Virus record (IMG/VR): IMGVR_UViG_3300005607_000057
Coordinates: 1-23,571 of that record
Direction: 5' to 3' (one strand)
From: a virus
Length of the DNA: 23,571 nt
Shown here: piece by piece, positions 8,674-17,339 of the stretch
How the letters are laid out: every line of letters starts with the position of its first letter
Numbering within the stretch: position 1 is the first letter of the stretch
Made by a program: the position numbers and the translations under genes
The notes under the pieces: generated by a model
What the model was told of the DNA's origin: nothing
The model's database searches: none
What the model saw: the letters and a program-made list of their open reading frames with translations, nothing else

Positions 8674-10155
8674 ATGCTGTGGACGCCGCAGACAAGCCTG
8701 TGGATGGCAGAGGCCCAACCCAAGGAAGAGGAGAAGGGCCCGCGTGTGATGGGCGAACAGAACACGGGGAAGCGACGCCACGGGCTTCGTACCTGTGACA
8801 GCGACTTCAACCTCGGCCGCCACCTGATCCCCTACCTCCAGGACGTACCGTTCTACGCCGAGATCTCGCGCTACGTCAAGAAGCGCTACACGCACGACAT
8901 CCCGACAGCGGCAGTCAGCTACGATCCGACCGACGACCAGGTCGTCATGTGGGTCAACCCCGAGTTCATGGGCGGGGGCACCTACTACAGCGAAGCTCGT
9001 GGCAAGGAGGTCACCTGTGAGCCGCTGACCAACTGGGAGATTCGTGGAGTCCTCAACCACGAGTTCGACCACCTGTGGAGCGGTCACCTCAACGCTCGAC
9101 GGAGGACACCCGCCGACGATTGGAACGTTGGCACCGACCTGGCCATCAACTCCCTCATCGTCAAGCACGCAGTCCAGCCCCGTGACCTGGAGCCCGGACA
9201 GGTTGCCCGGCCGCTCCCCAAGATGGGGCTGATCCCCGGCGTCAAGCCCTGGATCGACCCCGAGCGTTTCGCCGAGCTCGATGACAGGTCGAAAGCAGCG
9301 ACGTTGCGTCGCTGCGAGCTCATCGCCTCCTTCCCTCCCTTGAAGGCCAGCGAGTGGTACTTCGACCGCCTCATGGAGGACCGGAAGAAGAACGGGGAAG
9401 ACGACGGAGGCGTCGAGTACGCCATCGGTCCGATGGACGACCACGACGGGTGGGACGACATCCCCGAAGAGCTCCGCGAGTACGTCGAAGGCAAGGTCAA
9501 GGGCATCGTCGAGAAAGCTGTCCGTCACGCCGACTCGCAGTCGGAGGGCTGGGGCAACATCCCCGAAGAGATCCGGGCCGAGATCCGGAAGTACATCAGC
9601 ACCGTCGTCAACTGGCGCGCGGTGCTCCGCCAGTTCATCGGCAGCATCATCCGCGGCGCGCGGACGACATCGATCAAGCGCATCAACCGACGCTACCCGT
9701 ACATCCACCCGGGCGTCAAGCGGGGCTACACCGCCAAGCTGTTCATCGCCATCGACGAGTCGGGGTCAGTCAGCGACGAGATGGTCGCCATGTTCTTCAA
9801 CGAGCTGGACCAGCTGACGCGCAAGGTGGACATCACCCTGTGCCACTTCGACTGCCACGCTGGACCGAAAGACCTGTACGAGTGGCGGAAGGGCATGCGG
9901 CCCAAGCTGCACCGGACCAAGATGGGTGGCACCGACTTCTCGGCGCCCACTCGCATCGTCAACGACCCGAAGAACCGTGGCAGGTGGGACGGCATGCTGA
10001 TCATGACTGACGGCCAGGCGCCGAAGCCCATCCCCAGCCGCGTCAAGCGCGGGTGGGTCCTCGGACAGGGCTGCAAGCTGTTGTTCGAGAACGAGTGTGA
10101 CGAGATGCAGATCTTCCTGACGAAAGAACAGACGATCAAGGGAGCTTGGCGGTGA
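8674..10155 (+). CDS. DUF2201-like predicted metallopeptidase with VWA domain
   Basis: A 493-residue two-domain protein. The N-terminal half carries LNHEFDHLWSGH, an HExxH zinc motif (His129, Glu130, His133), in the layout of the DUF2201 putative metallopeptidase domain. The C-terminal half is a von Willebrand A-like domain: FIAIDESGSVS gives the MIDAS D-x-S-x-S from Asp361, followed by GGTDF and MTDG. Between them is an acidic helical linker. Related bacterial proteins often work with MoxR-type AAA ATPases; none is seen in the window. A role in protein processing or assembly is inferred. ATG 8674 is 6 nt after TAGGAT, so predicted leaderless; ATG codons at 8704 and 8749 are alternatives. Confidence 0.85.
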   Translation: MLWTPQTSLWMAEAQPKEEEKGPRVMGEQNTGKRRHGLRTCDSDFNLGRHLIPYLQDVPFYAEISRYVKKRYTHDIPTAAVSYDPTDDQVVMWVNPEFMGGGTYYSEARGKEVTCEPLTNWEIRGVLNHEFDHLWSGHLNARRRTPADDWNVGTDLAINSLIVKHAVQPRDLEPGQVARPLPKMGLIPGVKPWIDPERFAELDDRSKAATLRRCELIASFPPLKASEWYFDRLMEDRKKNGEDDGGVEYAIGPMDDHDGWDDIPEELREYVEGKVKGIVEKAVRHADSQSEGWGNIPEEIRAEIRKYISTVVNWRAVLRQFIGSIIRGARTTSIKRINRRYPYIHPGVKRGYTAKLFIAIDESGSVSDEMVAMFFNELDQLTRKVDITLCHFDCHAGPKDLYEWRKGMRPKLHRTKMGGTDFSAPTRIVNDPKNRGRWDGMLIMTDGQAPKPIPSRVKRGWVLGQGCKLLFENECDEMQIFLTKEQTIKGAWR

Positions 10156-12365: not shown

Positions 12366-12560
12366 CCGGCGAAAGCCGAACAACAACGAAACGAGATCAG
12401 TCGTCATGATGTCGAGCATGCTACCAGTGAGGACAGTGGGCGGAGGTTGCGAAAGCACCCTCGGCGGCCGCACGTCGTCCCTCCGGAGCGTGCTGCCGTT
12501 TCGTTTGCCGACCCCCCATCGGGGTTGAAATCGGCAAGCCGGTAGAGACGCCCGGCAGAA
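12366..12560 (+). ncRNA. Candidate structured RNA between tRNA-Glu and tRNA-Pro
   Basis: About 200 nt without a gene, but with strong pairing. AACGAAACG (12385-12393) pairs with CGTTTCGTT (12497-12505), closing a multi-branch domain. Inside are a GAAA-capped hairpin (12443-12462) and GCACG/CGTGC (12470-12474 with 12489-12493). GCCGA/TCGGC (12507-12511 with 12531-12535) forms a following hairpin with an inner CCCC/GGGG. Short GGC/GCC and CCGG/CCGG helices flank it. No known RNA family is recognised, and I see no tmRNA, SRP or 6S hallmarks. Confidence 0.45.
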
Positions 12561-12572
12561 GAGAAGATGAAT

Positions 12573-12928: not shown

Positions 12929-13007
12929 CGGGGCATAGCGAAGCCTGGTTTATCGCGTCTGGCTGGGGGCCAGAAGATCGCAGGTTCGAATCCTGCTGTC
13001 CCGACCA
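12929..13007 (+). tRNA. tRNA-Pro (GGG), CCA encoded
   Basis: Acceptor CGGGGCA/TGTCCCG (one G-U pair), D stem GCGA/TCGC, anticodon stem TCTGG/CCAGA with loop CTGGGGG (GGG), T arm GCAGG/CCTGC, A73 at 13004 and CCA at 13005-13007. Confidence 0.9.
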
Positions 13008-13019
13008 TCGACCCTCCAC

Positions 13020-13334
13020 CCGTCACGTGGCTGAAAGCAAGTCCCTGGCTCGGGGAAAGGCACTGGCACCGGAGATTGGTCAGGTCCGATGCGTGTGGAA
13101 GCGTAACGTCACTAGCGCGCCGATCAGGCAATCTCCTATTCGGAAGCGGGGTGGTGCACCGACCTACTAACGGTCAGAGCTTGGGTGCATGCGGGTAAAA
13201 GCCCGCCGCGGTGTTGAGAGCGTCTAGCTAACGCTTGAGCCGTGTGACAGAACGACGCGACTGACACGAGGTAGGTGTGAGGAGTGACATCCTCGCCGAG
13301 GCGGTTGGAGGGTCGATACTGATGCTTCGCGGGG
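13020..13334 (+). ncRNA. Large candidate structured RNA upstream of the zincin-like gene
   Basis: A gene-free stretch of about 340 nt with a series of helices: GGAGATTG/CAATCTCC (13071-13078 with 13129-13136), TGCACC/GGTGCA (13155-13160 with 13184-13189) enclosing GACC/GGTC, GCGGG/CCCGC (13191-13206), AGCGT/ACGCT (13219-13235), CGTGT..CAG/CTG..ACACG (13241-13268) and GAGGA/TCCTC (13279-13294). This density of perfect local pairs suggests a folded RNA, either free-standing within the tRNA transcript or a cis-acting leader for the gene at 13346. No riboswitch or intron core is recognised. Confidence 0.5.
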
Positions 13335-13345
13335 TATTTACCCCC

Positions 13346-14044
13346 ATGGATTCCCTCTACGAGCGAGTGGTGTTGAGGCTCCTGGCTGAGTCCAGGGTCG
13401 ACACGTTTGCTCGGACAATCACGAGGAAGATCGTCCAGCTCATCATCCAACGGATCGAGAAGCTGAACGACAAGAAACGGATCACGATCGTCATCAAGAA
13501 CTTGGACCCCGCATACGAGGGGTTCAACCTCAAACTGACGGCCACGCTCAAACAACGTGGTGACAACCGCGTCAACGTTGCCGGCAGCTGGACACCAGCG
13601 TTGGACGAGCTCGACGTCAACGTCTTCTTCGAGACCCGCGACGGTCTCTTCGACAAGACGCTGCTGTCGGGGCTACAACAGAAGCTGTACGACACTGTCC
13701 GACACGAGGTCGAGCACAGCACGCAGGAGAAACCTGCGAACATGTACAGCGATGAGGAAGAGGATGAAGACGAGGGAGCGCTGTGGCGTGACCTCCCAAG
13801 GCTGCAGGACTACTTCTTGTCTGACCGTGAGATTCCGGCCTTCGTTGCCGGGCTTTACCATCAGGCGAAACGCACTCGTCGACCGTTCATCAACGTCTTG
13901 GACGACAAGCTCAAGGCGTACGAACGAGTCGCGGTGCACTACAACGCAAAGAACGGACGGAAAGTGCGGCGTCTTTTCCAGACGATCCGAGACAAGTGGG
14001 TCGCATATGCGACGCAACGTTTTCCAAATGCAATCGTGAACTGA
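13346..14044 (+). CDS. Predicted zincin-like protein, 232 aa
   Basis: ATG 13346 is chosen over GTG 13277 because TATTTA (13335-13340) lies 5 nt upstream as a -10-like box and the region before it is RNA-like. The N-terminal half is basic and helical; the middle has TVRHEVEHSTQ, an HExxH zinc motif, followed by an acidic run (DEEEDEDEG). The C-terminal third is basic. The layout suggests a small metallopeptidase-like protein; family not recognised and activity inferred from one motif. It sits between tRNA genes. Codon use is less GC-biased at third positions than in the DNA ligase. Confidence 0.65.
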   Translation: MDSLYERVVLRLLAESRVDTFARTITRKIVQLIIQRIEKLNDKKRITIVIKNLDPAYEGFNLKLTATLKQRGDNRVNVAGSWTPALDELDVNVFFETRDGLFDKTLLSGLQQKLYDTVRHEVEHSTQEKPANMYSDEEEDEDEGALWRDLPRLQDYFLSDREIPAFVAGLYHQAKRTRRPFINVLDDKLKAYERVAVHYNAKNGRKVRRLFQTIRDKWVAYATQRFPNAIVN

Positions 14045-14045
14045 T

Positions 14046-14165
14046 CCGCGGCGGGTGCGCTGGCGCATGAGCCCCGTCTGAAGTTGCTGGCCTGTTCGAC
14101 TCAGGCGTGGGATGGCATCCCGGCATGCAAGGGGAGGCAAGGTTCGAGTCCTTGGCCGCGGTCCA
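14046..14165 (+). tRNA. Oversized tRNA-Ser (CGA)-like RNA
   Basis: CCGCGGC (14046-14052) pairs perfectly with GCCGCGG (14155-14161), followed by T and CCA. The T arm CAAGG-TTCGAGT-CCTTG and the anticodon hairpin GCCTG-TTCGACT-CAGGC (anticodon CGA, Ser) are clear. But 37 nt occupy the D-arm region, including a TGCG/CGCA hairpin, and 31 nt the variable region, including GGGAT/ATCCC. At about 117 nt before CCA it is far longer than a normal tRNA-Ser (85-95 nt). It may be an insertion-bearing or degenerate tRNA, or a tRNA-like RNA with another role. Confidence 0.5.
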
Positions 14166-16977: not shown

Positions 16978-16981
16978 CCGT

Positions 16982-17331
16982 GGAGGACCAGGCGATTCGC
17001 TGCATCCATGCAGAGGAAAGTCCGGGCTGCACAGAGCAGGATTCTGGCTAACGGCCAGGCGTGGCAACACGACGGAACAGTGCAACAGAAAACAGACCGC
17101 CGATGGCTTGGGGGTACGCCCCCTTGATCAGGTAAGGGCGAAACCGAGGTGTAAGAGACCCCGACAGGGCTGGTGACAGTCCCTTGTGGCAAACCCAATC
17201 CGTAGCAAGGCAAACAGAGGACGCTTGAGGTCTGCTCGGCCGATGTTCTCGGGTTGCTGCTAGAGGTGCGTGGTAACACGCATCCCAGAGGAATGATCGC
17301 CCAACGACAGAACCCGGCTTACCGGTCCTCC
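16982..17331 (+). ncRNA. rnpB: RNase P RNA, bacterial type A
   Basis: About 350 nt with the conserved elements of bacterial RNase P RNA, the ribozyme that trims tRNA 5' ends. P1 is GGAGGACC (16982-16989) with GGTCCTCC (17324-17331). GAGGAAAGTCCGGGCT (17013-17028) is CR-I; ACAGAAAACAGACCGCC, GGTAAGGGCGAAACC and GTAGCAAGGC follow in order; CAGAGGAATGATCGCC and ACAGAACCCGGCTTA (17307-17321) form CR-V. P3 is CTGCAT/ATGCAG. In P15-L15 the loop is only CAAAC (17190-17194) between TGG and CCA, so the GGU that pairs with tRNA CCA in E. coli is missing. No RNase P protein gene is in the window. A host origin by capture is possible. Confidence 0.95.
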
Positions 17332-17339
17332 GCCTCGAC

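Follow-up and report, generated by a model that had tools for sequence, protein, structure and literature searches.

Two phage RNAs of unknown function, GOLLD and ROOL, often lie near tRNA islands and form RNA-only cages, and large phage RNAs in such neighbourhoods can be abundant and structurally striking while their functions are poorly understood (PMC12286853). For OLE, a cryo-EM study reports that the palindrome of a kissing loop switches between GGCC, GAUC and AGCU, and takes this as evidence for a dimer (PMC12286853). The window analysed here, a whole stretch of 23.6 kb (23,571 nt) from a virus record, carries a long array of 24 tRNAs (ARAGORN), and within this array lies a 310-base structured non-coding RNA gene at 13008–13317 on the plus strand, delimited by homologues and covariance-model matches. 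It resembles GOLLD, which is also found in prophages and makes kissing-loop contacts, in being a structured RNA of phages near tRNAs (PMC12286853); however, GOLLD is often longer than 800 nt against about 310 nt here, and the fold differs. With ROOL, which likewise occurs in prophages, it has in common an elaborate fold and a phage setting near tRNAs (PMC12286853), but the two share no sequence, and where ROOL forms RNA-only cages, the present element may at most be predicted to form multimers. A loop palindrome that changes from AGCU to GGCC recalls OLE, whose dimer is held partly by a kissing loop (PMC12286853), although the sequence and the genomic setting are different and just two loop variants are seen here. 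When the window copy and the distant copy L060 were searched with cmscan against all 4227 Rfam families, no match was obtained at E ≤ 10, GOLLD, ROOL, OLE and RNase P RNA included, which agrees with the remark in the initial annotation that the element does not obviously match GOLLD or ROOL. The structure of the RNA and its independence from the neighbouring zincin-like gene are well supported; the setting is one already known for phage RNAs, and the family has no Rfam entry.

The RNA is common to at least five large phages, that of the window and those of four further phage records of 114, 309, 331 and 369 kb. The 369-kb (G001) and 114-kb (G003) records, and others, were reached through relatives of a neighbouring protein encoded at 8674–10155, and the RNA copies in two of these protein-derived records are 89% and 77% identical to the window copy. 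The copies L104 (from the 309-kb phage, G010) and L060 (from the 331-kb phage, G009) were added through pattern scans. Covariance-model matches place the homologues at L004:14394–14703, L002:14635–14942, L104:8075–7767 on the minus strand and L060:402–723. A model built from four copies detects L060, which was absent from its training, with 81 bits (E = 2e-25), and a five-copy model run over about 55 phage records matches only the four relatives besides the window. A blastn search for the RNA in phage and plasmid collections gave no match, and viral contigs scanned with patterns and with proteins, together with one genome scan, yielded no copies beyond the five. The five-copy model gives the intergenic region 1780–2110 of L150, from a 332-kb phage, only 6.9 bits (E = 1.2), and this region was not counted as a member. 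The slightly longer stretch L150:1780–2140 is structured, with several motifs of the present RNA in the same order and a clear terminator-like hairpin behind it; no relatives of it were found in the viral scan.

That the structured RNA is real follows from its homologues and their covariation, and not from the number of helices or the folding energy. The folding energy of the single sequence is modestly lower than that of shuffled sequences (z = -2.57), and the reverse strand is equal in this respect (z = -2.62). When four copies are simply aligned with MAFFT, standard pairs fill 98% of the pair cells and 19 of 63 pairs show changes on both sides, compared with 8.0 ± 1.9 in shuffles and 0–5 when the structure is slid along the alignment. 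In the five-copy alignment 98% of the pair cells also hold, and both-sided changes occur in 36 of 62 pairs (shuffles, 13.9 ± 2.6; slid structures, 2–8). Because the latter alignment was fitted to the structure, the four-copy MAFFT count and the match to the untrained L060 are the cleaner evidence; the comparison covers five copies, of which four are fairly closely related. RNAalifold, applied to the same alignment, also recovers these helices, the covariation term being -12.5 kcal/mol. No conserved reading frame was found, since each frame of either strand is interrupted by a stop in at least one copy. The description of the region as a large structured RNA with no coding frame of its own was thus sound, and sequence comparison strongly supports 13008–13317 as a real, elaborately folded RNA family without an Rfam entry. 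The span first proposed, 13020–13334, does hold a structured non-coding element, but its limits have to be moved, as the 5' half of the closing stem lies outside that span.

The fold is a closed multi-branched junction, in which the stem P1/P2 encloses the arms H4, H5, H6, H7, H8 and H10. Nine helices covary, and compensatory changes are present in each helix counted, an elaborate fold of the GOLLD and ROOL kind. P1 is formed by UCGACCCUCCA (13008–13018) and UGGAGGGUCGA (13306–13316), and P2 by 13019–13024 and 13300–13305; over P1/P2, in the five-copy alignment, both sides change in 9 of 17 pairs and 95% of the cells are paired. Hairpin H4 (UCCC/GGGA, 13042–13056) has both-sided changes in two of four pairs. 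Arm H5 (13071–13136) consists of an outer helix, GGAGAUUG/CAAUCUCC (13071–13078/13129–13136), in which six of eight pairs change on both sides, an inner helix GGUC/GAUC (13083–13086/13122–13125) and a conserved loop GGAAGCGUAACGUC (13097–13110). H6 (UGCACC/GGUGCA, 13155–13189) shows such changes in five of six pairs, H7 (GCGGG/CCCGC, 13191–13206) in two of five, and the two-part H8 (CGCGG/CCGUG with an inner GAGCGU/ACGCUU, 13207–13244) in eight of 11; the alignment places the H8 loop CUAGCUA, with its palindrome AGCU, at 13224–13230. The most conserved single-stranded block, UGACAGAACGACGCGACU, follows at 13245–13262, and H10 (GUGAGGA/UCCUCGC with the loop GUGACA, 13277–13296) has both-sided changes in three of seven pairs. 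All of these features are on the plus strand. The initial annotation had named three helices and suggested looking for covariation in homologues. Its TGCACC/GGTGCA helix is real and covaries (H6), but the nested GACC/GGTC does not hold in two of the three near relatives, and all three have one broken pair in the two-part CGTGT..CAG stem; the 5' strand of the latter pairs instead in the covarying CGCGG/CCGUG helix (13207–13211/13240–13244). A pseudoknot between RCGU (in the region 13100–13104) and ACGY of the 3' block is consistent in all five copies with one compensatory change, and is not claimed because permuted columns yield about one such helix by chance.

It is also evident that the RNA is closely fitted into the tRNA array. 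The CCA end of tRNA-Pro(GGG) (12929–13007, plus strand; ARAGORN and Rfam) directly precedes it, so that the gap between the upstream tRNA and the RNA is 0 nt in the window; it is likewise 0 nt in L002 and L004 and about 1–2 nt in L104, that is, 0–2 nt in four of the five copies. The spacing is looser in L060, about 35–40 nt upstream. On the other side, tRNA-Pro(CGG) begins exactly 5 nt after the RNA in L002, L004 and L104, and in the window the zincin-like ORF separates the RNA from the next tRNA. The location in a tRNA array, as known for RNAs of the GOLLD and ROOL kind, is thus seen in the window, L002, L004 and L104, and tRNAs are found near L060. Within 13008–13317 itself, ARAGORN and Rfam detected no tRNA-like domain and no tmRNA or tRNA family. 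Directly 3' of the L060 copy there is an odd tRNA-like sequence (L060:722–785). It has an acceptor of 7 bp (GGAUUCC/GGGGUCC), a T arm separated from the acceptor by four extra bases, and no clear anticodon arm.

A class A RNase P RNA (RF00010, 260.6 bits) is found in the same window at 16980–17337 on the plus strand, directly after tRNA-Leu. In the window, L002 and L004 it sits nearly flush behind tRNA-Leu, a layout like that of the structured RNA. Further phage records, of 369, 340, 332, 191 and 114 kb, also have a class A RNase P RNA that passes the Rfam cut-off, and no mention of a phage RNase P RNA was found in the publications on huge or jumbo phages consulted for this point. At the corresponding place in L104 (4770–4858, minus strand) there is an RNase P RNA relic of 89 nt and 21 bits, mainly the 3' part. 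Because G010 has only this relic beside an intact structured RNA, and no RNase P RNA was found in G009, the two RNAs are independent of each other.

Several other explanations of the structured RNA were considered. The initial annotation was based on six or more perfect local helices, and the window copy holds 11 of at least 5 bp compared with 13.1 ± 3.3 in dinucleotide shuffles; this chance-level count would suit fortuitous helices in GC-rich DNA with no functional RNA, an explanation that can practically be dismissed because it is contradicted by the covariation, with compensatory changes in every counted helix and the untrained match at E = 2e-25. A cis-acting leader controlling the zincin-like gene, as proposed alternatively, is scarcely credible either. 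The RNA does lie just upstream of this ORF in the window (13346–14044, plus strand, from the ORF list; HEVEH motif, no Pfam match), outside which it ends, but a leader would be expected to be retained together with the gene that it controls, and the synteny contradicts this. None of the four other RNA-bearing records (G001, G003, G009 and G010) has the gene, the absence in G003 holding for the sequence present since G003 and the window are fragments, and three of these phages have a tRNA at the corresponding place. Conversely, G014 has the zincin-like gene (40% identical), and the RNA model finds no match there. The RNA thus does not belong to the gene, as each occurs without the other across phages. 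It is also very improbable that the RNA acts in phage tRNA maturation, either as a divergent relative of RNase P or as its helper. It shares with class A RNase P RNA the tRNA array (in three of the five records), the flush position behind a tRNA and the short look-alike strings AAGUCCCUGGCUC and GACAGAAC in the right order; yet neither the window copy nor L060 matches any RNase P family at E ≤ 10, although the short L104 relic is still recognised, and in our own reading of the sequences the two conserved ends cannot be paired as P4. Long-range pairing candidates in the five-copy alignment are at chance level, with no P4-like pairing between the RNase-P-like strings. With no covariance-model match and no P4, and with the RNA retained in G009 and G010 without an intact RNase P RNA, a relationship to RNase P was rejected.

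The setting in or beside a tRNA array, which holds for all copies with data, might also suggest that the RNA acts in trans as a decoy or antidote, directed against host factors such as anticodon nucleases or toxins that target tRNAs or translation. It would then be carried in the array because its purpose is that of the tRNAs, and conserved unpaired blocks, for example UGACRGAACRACGYGACU, could bind a protein. However, the searches showed no similarity to tRNA or to known antitoxin RNAs and no partner gene is conserved directly adjacent to the RNA, and we consider this explanation unlikely. A passive role, as a structural spacer or as a stability element isolating or protecting the tRNA transcript, would fit the exact position between tRNAs and the long closing stem, but the inner helices and unpaired blocks are conserved far beyond the needs of a spacer, which makes such a role quite improbable.

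We instead propose that the element is a free-standing RNA gene in a tRNA operon, processed from the tRNA transcript, and that its product is architectural and probably oligomeric; taken as a whole, this explanation is about evenly balanced between being right and wrong. The origin by tRNA processing is proposed because both RNAs of the array lie nearly flush behind tRNAs. The RNA would be transcribed together with the tRNAs. Its 5' end would arise when the upstream tRNA is matured at the 3' end, whereas an RNase P cut at the downstream tRNA and subsequent trimming would produce its 3' end. Most simply, the enzymes responsible for tRNA maturation would release both the structured RNA and the RNase P RNA from the array transcript.

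The subsequent steps are put forward more cautiously, by analogy with described RNAs. Once processed, the RNA may have a trans-acting architectural role during infection; it would then probably associate into homodimers or oligomers through the palindromic loop of H8, in the manner of GOLLD, ROOL and OLE. The loop sequences offer hints of such a dimer contact, four copies reading CUAGCUA and L060 having GGCC in the corresponding position. Against this, there are two palindrome variants only, a random loop of 4 nt is palindromic in about 1 of 16 cases, and the H8 loop could pair instead with a conserved GGCU near 13029–13032. Moreover, known RNA cages consist of larger RNAs, which is contrary to the architectural role. 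Still more tentatively, and with rather more doubt than belief, one may think of a new compact family of self-assembling phage RNAs, produced from tRNA transcripts and forming dimers or larger particles through the palindromic loop; it would be a third tRNA-island RNA of the GOLLD and ROOL kind, less than half as large as GOLLD. A new short family (about 310 nt), unrelated to known ones and with ends set by the adjacent tRNAs, would be easy to synthesize in vitro and would show whether phages in general make use of structured RNAs placed in tRNA arrays. Attention is also drawn to those phages whose array includes an RNase P RNA of their own.

The array of the window has further features. Directly upstream of tRNA-Pro(TGG), at 12500–12568, there is another conserved element, about 70 nt long and rich in hairpins, UGCCG...CCCCCAUnGGGGUUGAA...AGAGAC..CCGGCA; its pairs are almost invariant and hence give no covariation yet, and the element is kept in L002, L004, L005 and L104. 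Moreover, a probable tRNA-Ser(CGA) of about 108 nt at 14049–14158 was missed by both ARAGORN and Rfam. This candidate has a 7-bp acceptor CCGCGGC/GCCGCGG, a T arm CAAGG/CCUUG, an anticodon stem GCCUG/CAGGC and an unusually long D-arm region, and it is about 79% identical in L002:15023–15126.
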